From Sphaerochaeta sp. (lineage in GTDB: Bacteria; Spirochaetota; Spirochaetia; Sphaerochaetales; Sphaerochaetaceae): a stretch of DNA of 64,000 nt. The DNA lies in contig JAKVPA010000001.1 in assembly GCA_022482495.1 (NCBI GenBank), positions 248,001-312,000 of the forward strand, in the 5' to 3' direction. A program made the translations under genes and the position numbers. Below, one piece after another: positions 15,739 through 21,336 of the stretch; within the stretch, counting starts at the first letter, position 1, and each line of letters opens with the position of its first letter. Below the pieces are notes generated by a model. It saw only the letters and a program-made list of their open reading frames with translations. It ran no database searches and was not told where the DNA came from.

Positions 15739-17002
15739 ATGGCACGAATCGCACAAACCTGCTCGTTCTGCGGAAAAAGCGCGAACGAGGTGAAACGCCT
15801 GATCAACGGACCAGGCGTGGCCATCTGCGACGAATGCGTCAAGGTCTGCGAGGAGATGCTGAAGGATGACCCTGCCATGCAGGAGGATACGACGGACATG
15901 CTGCCCGACGTCATCCCCACCCCGCAGGAGATCAAGGAGTTCATGGACCAGTACGTCATCGGTCAGGATGACGCCAAGCGGATCCTCGCCGTCGCAGTAT
16001 ACAACCATTACAAGCGGGTGAAGTTCGGCAAGAAGATGAACACCGAGATGGAGAAATCCAACATCCTGATGATCGGACCGACCGGAACAGGAAAGACACT
16101 TCTCGCACGGACGCTTGCCCGCAAGCTGAAGGTTCCGTTCGCCATCGCCGATGCCACGACGCTCACCGAGGCGGGATACGTGGGCGAGGATGTGGAGAAC
16201 ATATTGCTGAAGCTGATCCAGAACGCCGATGACAACGTCAGCGCGGCGGAACACGGCATCATCTTCATCGATGAGATCGACAAGATCGCCAAGAAGGAAG
16301 GGGAAAACCCGTCCATCACCCGTGATGTGTCCGGAGAAGGCGTCCAGCAGGGACTGCTCAAGATCATTGAGGGAACGGTTGCCTCCGTCCCGCCCCAAGG
16401 CGGCAGGAAGCACCCCAACCAGGAGATGATCCGCATCAACACCAAGGACATCCTGTTCATCTGCGGCGGCGCGTTCGTCGGGCTGGACAAGGTGATCGAG
16501 AAACGGGTCTCCAGCCATTCGATGGGATTCGGCGCCAATGTGGAGGAGCCGGGAGCCAGGGATCTGAAATCGCTGTATTCCCAGCTGATGCCGGATGATC
16601 TGATCAAATTCGGCCTGATCCCTGAGTTCATCGGACGTCTCCCCATTCATGTAACGCTGGGGAACCTCAGCAAGGATGAGCTGAAACGGATCATCACCGA
16701 ACCGAAGAACTCCGTGCTGAAGCAGTACCAGGAGAGTTTCGCGCTGGACAACATCAAGCTGACCTTCACCGACGATGCCATTGACGCAATCGCCCAGAAG
16801 GCCATCGAGCAGAACACCGGAGCCCGTGGCATCCGCTCCATCGTCGAATCGATGATGATGAACATCATGTACACCATCCCGTCGATGTCCCGGTGTGAAG
16901 GAAGTGATCGTGGACAAGAAGGCGGTCCAGGAAAACAAGGATCCCCAGATCCTCTTTGGAGATGAGCATGGAACTCCCAACGTACCCAGCGACCATTCTT
17001 GA
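15739..17002 (+). CDS. clpX: ClpX unfoldase, C-terminal +1 frameshift
   Basis: The protein has an N-terminal zinc-binding domain (CSFCGKS with CDECV), Walker A GPTGTGKT, Walker [11 protein letters not shown], and the GYVGEDVE and [10 protein letters not shown] segments of the pore-forming AAA+ module. The frame breaks near 16888. Removing one T there restores [16 protein letters not shown] and a tail ending at TGA 17000-17002; unrepaired, the frame ends at 16965 with a nonsense tail. The repaired length (about 420) matches ClpX. The repaired end overlaps the next gene by 35 bases. Confidence 0.9.
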
Positions 17003-17945
17003 GCTGATCACCCAACGCAAAAGCGTGATCATCGTCGGTCACGTCAACCCGGACGGGGATTGTCTGTCCAGCGAGATTTCGCTGGGCAAACTGCTCTCCG
17101 GCATGGGCAAGAAGGTGGTTCTAGCCAACGCCGGCCCGTTCGAGCGGACGGAGATCGCCAAATGGAAGAAATACTTCGTCCAGGAGGTCACCGCAGAGAT
17201 GCACGCCGATGATCCTCTGTTGATCGTCACCGACTGCTCCACCTCCGACCGGATCGGTACGCTGTACCAGCAGACCAAGGGGCTGAAGACGGTGGTCATC
17301 GACCATCACGCCTCAGGCGACCCGTTCGGCGACGAACGATACATCGTCCCCTCCTCCCCTTCCACCACCCTGTTGATCCAGCATCTGTACCATGCGCTGC
17401 AACAGCCGATCAGCAAGGACGCCGCGTCGTTCATCTTTTTCGGATTCGCCACGGATACCGGCTATTTCCGGTTCATCAACGCAGGCCAGGGTTTCGCGCT
17501 GGACTACGTCTCCGAACTGGTCGATCTTGGGGTCTCACCCAACGCCGTCTACATGACGATGACCGGAGGCAAATCGCTTCCGTACATCCACTACCTTGGA
17601 GCTTTGATCCAACGCAGCGAACCGTTTCTGGATGGCAAGGTGATGTGTTCCTTCTGCTACCAGAAAGACAAGGAAATGTACGGGGAGGATCGTCCCAGTG
17701 ACCTGTTCTACTCCCAGATGCTTTCCGTGGAAGGCGTCCAGGTGGTGATGCTGTTCAAGGAATTACCGGAGGGGAATACGGAAGTCGGATTCCGTTCCAG
17801 TCATGACAGCGCCGTGGATGTCGGCATTCTTGCCGCGACCTATGGTGGCGGTGGACACAAGCATGCAAGCGGAGTAACGGTGGCGCGTCCCATCGAGGAA
17901 ATCCGCGGCATGCTTCTGAAGGACCTGACCCGCCAGCTTTCCTGA
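16968..17945 (+). CDS. nrnA: DHH-family oligoribonuclease / pAp phosphatase
   Basis: A 325-residue DHH/DHHA1 protein. ATG 16968 follows GGAG at a six-base distance; ATG 16962 and TTG 16956 are alternatives. Motifs: VGHVNPDGDCLSSE (DHH motif I), VTDCSTSDR, and VIDHHASGD (the DHH itself), then the DHHA1 domain with GGGGHKHASG. Such NrnA proteins degrade two- to four-base RNAs and dephosphorylate pAp. It follows clpX closely and likely shares its transcript. Confidence 0.88.
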   Translation: MELPTYPATILELITQRKSVIIVGHVNPDGDCLSSEISLGKLLSGMGKKVVLANAGPFERTEIAKWKKYFVQEVTAEMHADDPLLIVTDCSTSDRIGTLYQQTKGLKTVVIDHHASGDPFGDERYIVPSSPSTTLLIQHLYHALQQPISKDAASFIFFGFATDTGYFRFINAGQGFALDYVSELVDLGVSPNAVYMTMTGGKSLPYIHYLGALIQRSEPFLDGKVMCSFCYQKDKEMYGEDRPSDLFYSQMLSVEGVQVVMLFKELPEGNTEVGFRSSHDSAVDVGILAATYGGGGHKHASGVTVARPIEEIRGMLLKDLTRQLS

Positions 17946-17955
17946 CCATTTTATC

Positions 17956-17971
17956 TGGCACACAACTTGCA
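17956..17971 (+). promoter_or_regulatory. Sigma-54 (-24/-12) promoter
   Basis: The sequence TGGCAC-N5-TTGCA matches the RpoN consensus, with GG at 17957-17958 and GC at 17969-17970 separated by exactly ten bases. It sits 30 bases before the start at 18001, leaving room for a transcription start near 17982 and the ribosome site AAAAGGAG. Transcription from such a promoter needs RpoN and an AAA+ activator; neither gene is in the window and no upstream activator site was recognised. Confidence 0.8.
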
Positions 17972-18000
17972 TTCCATAGAGGTCTGAAAAGGAGACCTTT

Positions 18001-18954
18001 ATGGAAGAAGTTACTGCGTCCACCCAAATCATTCTGGCGTGGAAACACGATCCTGATGCATCCCAACGGCATGATGCGGCCCGCAAGGAGGCGATGCGCC
18101 TTCTGTATCTGACACCCAAAAAGCTGCACCTGCTCCCCGAAGAGGCATGTTCCGACTTTCTGCTGTACTGCATGCCGTCCATCGACCGTTACCTGGAGAT
18201 ATACGATCCATCCCGGCTTCCCTTCGAGCAGTTCATCGAAGGGATCGTCCGCCGAAGAGCGCCGGCACTTGAGATGCGCCGGCGGCGTCAGGAACAATGG
18301 AGGGATGCCGTCACCCAGTTTCCGCTTTTGGTGCTCCCCGAAACGGTTGAGGAGACGCAACCGGAGTATCATCCCCGCAGCCGGGTCCTGCCGTTGTCGG
18401 CAATGCCACGTCAGTTCCAGGCGTTATGCCAGATCCGGCAAAGCCGCATTCCTTCCCCCACCCCGCCCATTGCCCGACTCGCGGAAAAACTTGCCATCCC
18501 ATGGATACGCAAAGGTTTTATGTTGCTTTTGACCACCGCTCCAGGGTACTGCCTCGCCACGTTTCCCCAAAGCATGGCGTTGCTGCTTGGTGTCCCTGAG
18601 GCATCGCTCCAATCCTACCTGCTCACCGCCGAGAGCGTGCTCGCACCGCTTCGGGAAAAACGTACACGCCTGTTGGAATCGGTCAACTTCCACTACCGCA
18701 GGATGATCCAGTGCCAATGGGAAAGCCAGTACGCCATGGCGCGGGAACTGCATCTCTTGCGTATGGCCGAGCATAACCGGAAGTTGCTGCACCGCAGAGT
18801 CGAGGAGCTGCAGCATCAGTCGTTCTGTCTATCCCATACCGAGGTCAGCAGACTGGTAGGCATCGCCCGGGGGACGGTCAATTCCGGAACCTACTGCGCC
18901 AGAGCGGTCATTCGGGAATGTCTGGACGATGAAGCGGCAAAGAAGTATGGTTGA
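18001..18954 (+). CDS. Unrecognised protein with sigma-like segment and C-terminal HTH
   Basis: A 317-residue protein I cannot assign to a named family. Residues about 61-86 read IDRYLEIYDPSRLPFEQFIEG followed by VRRR, which recalls sigma-70 region 2 (the YDPSRG...F motif). Near residues 277-296, LSHTEVSRLVGIARGTVNSG looks like a helix-turn-helix with the recognition helix at GIARGTVNS. The middle is rich in Arg, Pro and Leu. No signal peptide or membrane helix is seen. It is preceded by a sigma-54 promoter and followed four bases later by rdgB. It could be a divergent sigma factor, a lineage-specific regulator or a degraded paralogue of one; the DNA-binding role is inference. Confidence 0.6.
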   Translation: MEEVTASTQIILAWKHDPDASQRHDAARKEAMRLLYLTPKKLHLLPEEACSDFLLYCMPSIDRYLEIYDPSRLPFEQFIEGIVRRRAPALEMRRRRQEQWRDAVTQFPLLVLPETVEETQPEYHPRSRVLPLSAMPRQFQALCQIRQSRIPSPTPPIARLAEKLAIPWIRKGFMLLLTTAPGYCLATFPQSMALLLGVPEASLQSYLLTAESVLAPLREKRTRLLESVNFHYRRMIQCQWESQYAMARELHLLRMAEHNRKLLHRRVEELQHQSFCLSHTEVSRLVGIARGTVNSGTYCARAVIRECLDDEAAKKYG

Positions 18955-18958
18955 AGGT

Positions 18959-19552
18959 ATGAAAATCCTTTTGGCAAGTTCCAATACCCATAAAAAAACG
19001 GAGATCGCGCGGATGCTCAAGCAGCACGAGGTGTTGCTGCCCTCCGACCTTGGCATCACCTTCTCGTGCGATGAGACGGGGAAGACGTTCATCGAGAATG
19101 CCATGCTGAAAGCCAACGCCTTGCATGCGGCCGCGCCGAAGGGTGTGGTGATCATGGCCGACGACAGCGGGCTGTGTGTCGACGCGTTGGGCGGCAGGCC
19201 CGGCATCTATTCGGCGCGCTATGGCATGAAGGGCGGGATCGAGCTTTCCGCGGCAGAGAAGAACGCGCTGCTCCTTTCCGAACTGAGCGCCTTCCCCCAG
19301 TGGAAGGACCGGACGGCCCATTTCGTCTGCGCCCTGGTGGTGCGTCTGGACGACCACCGGATCTTCGTCTTCCAGGAAGCGGTGGATGGACACATCATGG
19401 ACAAGCCATCCGGCACGGCGGGATTCGGCTATGACCCTGTCTTCTTCATCGACCAGGCCGGATGTGGGATGGCGGAGCTTCCCGAAGGGGAAAAAGACAA
19501 TTTCAGCCACCGGGGACGGGCCATCCGTGATTTTCTCAAGGAGATGCAATAA
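18959..19552 (+). CDS. rdgB: Non-canonical purine NTP pyrophosphatase (RdgB/HAM1)
   Basis: A 197-residue house-cleaning nucleotidase removing dITP, XTP and similar. The start MKILLASSNTHKKTEI carries the family SNTHKK motif; FIENAMLKANAL and ADDSGLCVDALGG are the other signatures, with SGTAGFGYDPVF near the C terminus. ATG 18959 is preferred (AAGG upstream), with ATG 18947 as alternative. It lies in the sigma-54-linked unit between the HTH protein and pepF; its stop overlaps the pepF start. Confidence 0.93.
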   Translation: MKILLASSNTHKKTEIARMLKQHEVLLPSDLGITFSCDETGKTFIENAMLKANALHAAAPKGVVIMADDSGLCVDALGGRPGIYSARYGMKGGIELSAAEKNALLLSELSAFPQWKDRTAHFVCALVVRLDDHRIFVFQEAVDGHIMDKPSGTAGFGYDPVFFIDQAGCGMAELPEGEKDNFSHRGRAIRDFLKEMQ

Positions 19553-21336
19553 TGGAAACCAAGAAACGTGCTGACGTGGATATCCACGACCAATGGGATC
19601 TTTCCAGCCTGTTCGCCTCGGAAGCGGATTGGGAGCAGGGAGTGCTTCGGCTGAAGGAATACACCAAGGAAGCGCCCACATGGAAAGCGAAGATGAGGGA
19701 AGGCAAACAAGGGCTTTTGGATACGCTTGCCTGGTATGGAGAGCTTTCCATTCTTTCCGAACGGGTCGGATGCTACGCCATGCTGCGCTACAGCGCCGAC
19801 GCCTCCGATCCCAAGGACGTCCGGATGTACGGATTGGCAAGCCAGACGCTTTCCGAACTGGGCTCGGCCCTCTCCTGGTTCGAGCCACAGTTGCTTGCGC
19901 TGGACGACCAGACGCTTCGGGGGTATCTGGATGACACATCCTTTGCCCCATACCGGATCTGGCTCTCCAAGGAACTCAGGGCAAAACAGCACGTCCTTTC
20001 CGAACCGGAGGAACGGCTCCTCGCCATGCAGTCGGAGTGCGCCCAGACGCCGCATCTTGCCTTCTCCGACCTCACCAATGTGGATCTTGATTTCGGCTCC
20101 ATCGACGGCAAACCGCTGACGCAGAGCACCTACGCCACGTTCATGACCAATCCCGACCGGATGATCCGCAAAATGGCGTACGACCAGCTCTACCATGCGT
20201 TCGAGGTACACCAGCACACCATCGCCCGTCTGTACGAGGGATCGGTGAATGAGGATATCTTCCACGCGCGGGCACGCTCGTTCGATTCCTCGCGTCAACG
20301 GGCCTTGTTCCCTGACGCCATCAGCGACCAGGTGTACGAATCACTGGTGGATACCGTCCACCAGGCGTTCGGCTCACTGCACCGCTACTATGAGCTGAAG
20401 CGGAAAGTACTGGGGCTTGACCGTCTCGGCCACTGGGATGTGTACGTCCCGTTGGTCAAAGGCGTCTCGTTCAAGAGCACCTACGATGATGCGGTACAGA
20501 CGGTGTGCAAAGCGCTCAAGCCACTGGGCGAATCCTATGTGAGGACGATCCACGCAGGCCTCACCACCGAAGGATGGGTGGACCGGTATGAGAACAAAGG
20601 GAAGCGCAGCGGCGCGTTCTCCAGCGGGTGCTACACCAGCAAGCCGTACATTCTTCTGAACTTCACCGGAGAAGAGATCAACGACCTGTTCACCATGATC
20701 CACGAAGGCGGGCATTCCATGCACAGCTACTACAGCAAACGGAACAACCCGTTCTTCTGCTACGACTACACGATCTTCGAGGCGGAAGTCGCTTCCACGT
20801 TCAACGAACAGCTGTTGTTCCACTACCTGTACGATCACGCGGAATCCAAGGAACAGAAAGCGTTCCTGCTGGGCAAACAGCTGGATGACATTGTCGCCAC
20901 GCTGTTCCGGCAGGTGATGTTCGCTGAGTTCGAGGATGGCGTGCATCGCCAGGTGGAAGGGGGAGAACCTCTCACCGTGGAAAGCCTCAGGGAACGGTAC
21001 CGCAACCTGCTGGAAGCGTACTTCGGAGACCAGGTGGAATTCACCCCCCAGAGTGATCTGGAAGGACTTCGCATCCCCCACTTCTACACGGCCTACTACG
21101 TGTACAAGTACGCCACCGGCATCAGCGCGGCCATCGCGTTGTCCCAGCGGGTTCTGGGCGGCGGGGAAGCGGAACGGGACGATTATCTGTCCTTCCTGAA
21201 GAGCGGAGGCTCTCGTTTCCCGATGGATTCCCTGCGCCTTGCCGGCGTGGACATGGCCGATGGTTCGGCGGTGAGGGCTGCGACGAAACGATTCTCTGAG
21301 CTCCTGGACGCGTTCGAGTCCCAGATGCTCAGCTGA
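19552..21336 (+). CDS. pepF: Oligoendopeptidase F (M3 metallopeptidase)
   Basis: A 594-residue M3B-family zinc peptidase. The zinc site is the HExxH motif in MIHEGGHSMHS near residue 385, with the third ligand glutamate in FEAEVASTFNE about 25 residues later. It cleaves short peptides in the cytoplasm. ATG 19552 overlaps the rdgB stop (TAATGG). The last eight bases overlap the end of the convergent acyltransferase gene. Confidence 0.93.
   Translation: METKKRADVDIHDQWDLSSLFASEADWEQGVLRLKEYTKEAPTWKAKMREGKQGLLDTLAWYGELSILSERVGCYAMLRYSADASDPKDVRMYGLASQTLSELGSALSWFEPQLLALDDQTLRGYLDDTSFAPYRIWLSKELRAKQHVLSEPEERLLAMQSECAQTPHLAFSDLTNVDLDFGSIDGKPLTQSTYATFMTNPDRMIRKMAYDQLYHAFEVHQHTIARLYEGSVNEDIFHARARSFDSSRQRALFPDAISDQVYESLVDTVHQAFGSLHRYYELKRKVLGLDRLGHWDVYVPLVKGVSFKSTYDDAVQTVCKALKPLGESYVRTIHAGLTTEGWVDRYENKGKRSGAFSSGCYTSKPYILLNFTGEEINDLFTMIHEGGHSMHSYYSKRNNPFFCYDYTIFEAEVASTFNEQLLFHYLYDHAESKEQKAFLLGKQLDDIVATLFRQVMFAEFEDGVHRQVEGGEPLTVESLRERYRNLLEAYFGDQVEFTPQSDLEGLRIPHFYTAYYVYKYATGISAAIALSQRVLGGGEAERDDYLSFLKSGGSRFPMDSLRLAGVDMADGSAVRAATKRFSELLDAFESQMLS

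Follow-up and report, generated by a model that had tools for sequence, protein, structure and literature searches.

A conserved sigma-54 promoter element precedes the gene for a putative divergent ECF-like sigma factor in Sphaerochaeta sp. and related spirochaetes

Introduction

Cascades in which RpoN (sigma-54) governs another sigma factor have been described for a few pathogens. In the Rrp2-RpoN-RpoS cascade of Borrelia burgdorferi, a sigma-70-family gene is turned on by RpoN acting with an enhancer-binding protein (PMC3037356). The Borrelia cascade has been studied within a programme of host adaptation. HrpL, by comparison, is a compact extracytoplasmic function (ECF) sigma factor of plant pathogens that is linked to type III secretion. 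In the HrpS-RpoN-HrpL cascade of Pseudomonas and Pantoea, expression of an ECF sigma gene is induced by an activator that depends on RpoN (PMC8103513). Here, we describe a locus with apparently the same logic in a 64,000-nt stretch of the genome of Sphaerochaeta sp. (contig JAKVPA010000001.1, positions 248,001 to 312,000; hereafter, the window), in which an exact sigma-54 promoter element precedes a gene encoding a sigma-70-like protein of 317 amino acids.

The host, like Borrelia, is a spirochaete. However, the Borrelia effector is the group-2 sigma factor RpoS, whereas the present protein is ECF-like and is encoded at a different conserved locus; its N-terminal domain shows no alignment to the group-2 sigma factor of its own genome, and that RpoS-like gene has a separate RpoN site. 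The step from RpoN to an ECF-type sigma factor is shared with the HrpS-RpoN-HrpL cascade, but the present protein, unlike the compact HrpL, carries approximately 165 extra residues between regions 2 and 4.2, and in spirochaetes its gene is flanked by nrnA and rdgB. An ECF core with an added domain is also found in the ECF41 sigma factors, which carry a fused regulatory domain (PMC3426412). We propose, with a probability of roughly 65%, that the product of the gene is a divergent ECF-like protein of the sigma-70 family, the expression of which would be switched on by RpoN holoenzyme together with an enhancer-binding protein. Borrelia and Pseudomonas already provide examples of this type of relay, from RpoN to an alternative sigma factor; the proposed effector would be new.

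The sigma-54 element and its conservation

The promoter region and the gene are arranged as follows.

17956..17971, + strand: sigma-54 promoter element with -24 (TGGCAC) and -12 (TTGCA) parts in GG-N10-GC spacing (sequence, conservation before homologues, RpoN in the genome)
17972..18000, + strand: predicted transcription start (approximately 17982, placed from the position of the -12 part) and ribosome-binding site AAAAGGAGA (from the sequence)
18001..18954, + strand: sigma-70-like protein, 317 amino acids (open reading frame, family profile, ECF sigma homology, purifying selection in a pair of relatives)

The initial annotation had placed a sigma-54 promoter with strict GG-N10-GC spacing before the gene and had named a search for the same promoter before orthologues as a check. 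The element is confirmed, and the check, which found it conserved before most homologues, did not refute the proposal. The element TGGCACACAACTTGCA is exact, with precisely 10 bases between GG (17957-17958) and GC (17969-17970). It ends 29 bases ahead of the ATG (18001), and the ribosome-binding sequence AAAAGGAGACCTTT lies inside this gap, giving the 317-aa open reading frame (ORF) its own Shine-Dalgarno sequence. Since it begins 11 bp past the stop codon of nrnA (17943-17945), the element is non-coding.

The same genome (2.25 Mb in 14 contigs) encodes RpoN, as do 60 of 61 relatives. It also encodes four sigma-54 activators: two carry receiver domains, one resembles PspF, and one has no recognised C-terminal helix-turn-helix (HTH). 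At C2:79137 (loci L055 and L204), a 378-aa sigma-54 activator showed no Pfam receiver domain and no C-terminal HTH; because no such HTH was found, this protein may work without DNA binding.

A lone -24/-12 motif is weak evidence, and the window and genome counts do not decide the matter: 17 matches within 2 mismatches were observed in the window compared with 20.3 expected, and the strict pattern TGGCAYN5TTGCW occurred 6 times genome-wide compared with 3 times for the reversed control pattern. Judged from sequence, it is the conservation before homologues that gives the element its significance. We scanned the 150-bp regions upstream of 77 homologues for sites matching the consensus at 9 or more of 11 positions in GG-N10-GC spacing (GG-N10-TC was also allowed). 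Such sites were present in 48/77 regions, and sites matching at 10 or more positions in 43/77. At these two thresholds, Markov-shuffled sequences gave 2.1% and 0.3%, the reverse strand gave 3/77 and 0/77, and coding windows gave 4/424 and 1/424. The 77 regions include homologues from outside the class (families f36, f37, f42, f45, f55, and f64, which were excluded from the larger alignment), none of which had an RpoN site before the gene; thus, 48/77 is a conservative figure. The site-bearing homologues span 12 families of the class, and the site was kept even though the proteins are mostly only 14-27% identical. It was also present at all six Sphaerochaeta-related loci from metagenome-assembled genomes (L166-L171) that were found by a three-sequence alignment search; an alignment of 18 members had offered no sufficiently conserved stretch for such a search. 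Among 44 non-redundant sites, the flanking DNA was random (28% pairwise identity), and consensus positions outside those used for selection recurred, with T before TGG in 34 sites and G after TGGCAY in 26. The distance from site to ATG was mostly 39-56 bp.

These data bear on the explanation that the promoter match is coincidental and the gene is read from a clpX/nrnA operon. The motif counts in the window are no higher than chance, the genome-wide counts are only 6 to 3, some orthologues lack a site, and read-through from upstream could occur in addition; nevertheless, the conservation across homologues far exceeds all controls, which makes coincidence scarcely credible. The comparative data already refute this explanation, except in the case that the element is conserved as a target of some other DNA-binding protein.

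No recognisable RpoN site was seen before the homologues L065, L072, L083-L086, L088-L090, L095, or L100-L102, and nearly all relatives keep RpoN. L083-L085 have a TTYCMCCTYYCTTGC-like sequence where the RpoN site would be, possibly a decayed or altered promoter. The homologue at L019 (G011:C58) exceeds 560 aa, has internal repeats (GSKNTAGQAVSVGKQAESLTVK) located between its sigma-like regions, and lacks an RpoN site.

Relationship of the protein to ECF sigma factors

Homologues were found by the single sequence in 19 of 61 genomes and by a family profile in 183 of 393 genomes of the phylum. A profile of 66 family members was compared with a profile of 29 spirochaete ECF sigma factors using hhalign, with shuffled columns as controls. 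Region 2 (residues 24-99) aligned with a probability of 94.7, and the N-terminal slice scored 30.8 compared with at most 12.9 for shuffled columns; region 4.2 (residues 272-311) aligned with a probability of 96.7 in the C-terminal slice, which scored 52.8 against a shuffled maximum of 12.9. The two regions thus occur in the expected order. The NCBI sigma70-ECF model TIGR02937 was matched by 11 of 18 family members at E <= 1 (best, 1.1e-5), and the homologue L092 matched it at 4.1e-11 over residues 18-279, covering both region 2 and region 4.2. The conserved N-terminal positions (E47, E/D48, F53, Y/F68, F/Y75, Y/F78, L79, and R/K84) fit the core of region 2. A comparison of one pair of relatives gave nonsynonymous (dN) and synonymous (dS) substitution values of 0.12 and 1.82, respectively (dN/dS approximately 0.07), indicating that the protein is constrained.

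The predicted domains are listed below.

18061..18318, + strand: region-2-like domain, residues 21-106, containing YDPSR at 68-72 (ECF region 2 profile alignment, AlphaFold, Foldseek)
18463..18636, + strand: inserted helical domain, residues 155-212, weakly like sigma region 4 (AlphaFold helices; hhalign score 21.7 against a shuffled maximum of 12.7)
18643..18816, + strand: long helical hairpin, residues 215-272 (AlphaFold helices 215-244 and 246-272)
18817..18930, + strand: region-4.2-like HTH, residues 273-310 (hhalign; PDB profile matches to ECF sigma region 4)

AlphaFold confidence (pLDDT) was 88.6 over the full length and 94.3 over residues 1-110. In Foldseek, the best match for both the whole protein and residues 1-110 was 9a7s_A, labelled RPSD (254 residues), which we take to be B. 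subtilis sigma-D. For residues 1-110, each of the eight highest-ranked matches was a sigma factor, among them ShbA, sigma-E region 2, RpoS region 2, and SigK. The initial annotation had noted a protein of no listed family with a YDPSR segment recalling sigma-70 region 2 and a C-terminal HTH, and had named profile and fold comparisons as checks. Each point agreed with our data: the predicted fold is sigma-like, regions 2 and 4.2 were recovered in the right order, RpoN is present in the genome, YDPSR lies inside the region-2-like domain with Y or F at position 68 in 65 of 66 homologues, and the HTH (approximately residues 273-310) matches ECF region 4.2.

A non-sigma protein that has a common C-terminal HTH and is under RpoN control would account for the weak matches of some members to generic HTH families and for the PDB profile search, in which the matches to ECF sigma region 4 covered the C-terminal part only. 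It would not account for the alignment of the N-terminal profile with ECF region 2, the match of L092 to TIGR02937 across both regions, or the exclusively sigma-factor matches of the N-terminal domain, and we regard it as very improbable. Two other candidates were rejected. Group-2 sigma factors are recognised by regions 1.2, 2, 3, and 4 like those of RpoD/RpoS; an RpoS-like (group-2) N-terminal domain was rejected here, since the comparison of the N-terminal profile with 28 group-2 orthologues scored 11.4, under the shuffled maximum of 15.9. An internal duplication, suggested by an apparent resemblance of the middle slice to the C-terminal one, was dropped because it reflected slice overlap only.

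Although region 2 is followed by region 4.2 as in the ECF (group 4) sigma factors, the present family has a far longer spacing between them and is highly divergent, and the members scanned miss the curated cut-offs. ECF sigma factors are distinguished by a short linker between regions 2 and 4 and a total length of approximately 170-200 aa; here, the protein has 317 aa, and the approximately 165 residues between regions 2 and 4.2 comprise a linker, the helical domain, and the long helical hairpin (a coiled coil). The likeness of the helical domain to region 4 is suggestive only. In ECF41 sigma factors the extra domain is C-terminal, whereas the extra part here is inserted between regions 2 and 4.2.

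Several observations weigh against assigning the protein to the sigma factors and its gene to RpoN control. A Pfam search with the single window protein gave no match, and no Pfam family covers it; its only NCBIfam matches were weak and C-terminal. L092 reached 42.8 bits against TIGR02937, 0.1 bit short of the cut-off of 42.9, and no Foldseek match of the whole protein or of residues 1-110 was significant by E-value. Two homologues from the same genus are only 24-26% identical to the window protein, an unusually fast divergence for a core-binding factor. Some of the orthologues among the 77 upstream regions scanned, including several in the window's own family, lacked the site, and a search for activator-binding repeats common to the RpoN sites of the genome yielded nothing convincing.

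The main rival explanation is that the protein is a regulator of ECF descent, controlled by RpoN, that has lost the ability to open promoters and instead binds DNA as a transcription factor or competes for core polymerase. Fast divergence, low conservation of region 2 (mean of 34% for the most common residue), and the large insertion between regions 2 and 4.2 all speak for this explanation, as does the failure to reach the curated sigma cut-offs. However, regions 2 and 4.2 are retained together, in order, throughout the family, and nowhere in the N-terminal half is conservation higher than in the core pattern of region 2 (E47, E/D48, F53, Y/F68, F/Y75, Y78, and L79). We consider this regulator unlikely, while ranking it first among the alternatives.

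If the protein is instead a working sigma factor under RpoN control, as we favour, RpoN holoenzyme would wait at the promoter until an enhancer-binding protein opened it on some cue. The sigma-like protein would then be made, perhaps along with RdgB and PepF. Its region-2 domain would bind core RNA polymerase and its C-terminal region-4.2 HTH would contact -35 DNA, redirecting core polymerase to a secondary group of promoters; the helical insertion and the coiled coil may set the spacing of the domains or regulate activity. The promoter half of this mechanism rests on comparative evidence, and we infer the half that concerns sigma activity from homology.

Gene neighbourhood

The genes on either side of the sigma-like gene are as follows.

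16956..17945, + strand: nrnA-like DHH/DHHA1 phosphoesterase, conserved upstream neighbour (Pfam DHH and DHHA1; synteny)
18959..19552, + strand: rdgB (Ham1-like), conserved downstream neighbour (Pfam Ham1p_like; synteny; spacing)
19552..21336, + strand: pepF (peptidase family M3), next gene (Pfam Peptidase_M3 and M3_N; synteny)

The ATG of rdgB lies 4 nt past the stop codon of the sigma-like gene, and the ATG of pepF overlaps the stop codon of rdgB. Hence rdgB is probably co-transcribed with the sigma-like gene, and the spacing would also fit the inclusion of pepF. Within the window's own family, the arrangement of nrnA upstream and rdgB downstream is conserved, and many other families of the class retain at least one of the two neighbours. 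Because these neighbours are kept, the homologues are orthologues in place rather than scattered paralogues.

Other RpoN sites in the genome

A perfect RpoN site lies 41 bp before the ATG of a group-2 (RpoD/RpoS-like) sigma gene of 292 aa (gene at C10:43297, within C10:43256-44172; L132, L134, and L172). Sites matching at 10 or more of 11 positions preceded 28 of 28 readable group-2 sigma orthologues (L173-L201) from many families of the class. These sequences suggest that the type of cascade known from Borrelia, in which RpoN drives an RpoS-like gene, occurs widely among spirochaetes.

Two tandem RpoN sites on the minus strand (C2:195123-195188 and C2:195342-195409; L203, L211, and L219) are followed by no ORF. 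They head candidate small RNAs that each contain a CCTCCTT anti-Shine-Dalgarno stretch and a hairpin resembling a terminator, and for which an Rfam search gave no match. The core CAGAGCAACAGTTTTTTTCATACCTCCTT is common to relatives (L206-L220), with 15 occurrences in 11 of 31 genomes, compared with none for the reversed pattern. Its complement, AAGGAGGTATGAAAAAAACTGTTGCTCTG, corresponds to a ribosome-binding site and the Met-Lys-Lys start of a signal peptide. The pattern AGGAGG-N1-9-ATGAARAAA was found at 12 other sites in the genome (L221-L233), most of which start signal peptides resembling those of solute-binding proteins, a class that the MKK pattern itself favours. GcvB-like silencing by the candidate small RNAs is possible.

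At C2:239458 (L130 and L054), an RpoN site precedes a pspA-like gene; a PspC-like ORF comes next, and a PspF-like activator is encoded divergently. This locus is a probable phage-shock-type operon.

Implications

The initial annotation had proposed a new regulatory cascade. The sigma-like reading on which that proposal depended is supported, but the type of cascade was already known from Borrelia and Pseudomonas. Conservation of the element, the presence of RpoN and its activators, homology to regions 2 and 4.2, and synteny come from comparison or prediction; promoter use, core binding, sigma activity, and target genes are what we infer. In the open-access literature, we found neither the family nor an RpoN-to-sigma cascade in a spirochaete other than Borrelia described, an absence that is no proof of novelty.

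The conserved element before the sigma-like gene suggests an old, apparently undescribed sigma-to-sigma relay. In a broader interpretation, an undescribed sigma-70-type subfamily (region 2, extra HTH-like helical domain, coiled coil, region 4.2) would serve as effector in an ancestral relay from RpoN to a sigma factor that has been kept in much of the class. Beside a second branch from RpoN to the group-2 sigma factor and the RpoN-driven small RNAs, RpoN would then head a branched stress or envelope programme. We hold the chances of this broader interpretation to be about even.

The conservation of the -24/-12 element across much of the class suggests that RpoN-to-sigma relays are old in spirochaetes and extend well beyond Borrelia. 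A protein family that is absent from Pfam thereby gains a name and a test, and that the protein drifts while its promoter stays fixed raises a question worth asking in itself.
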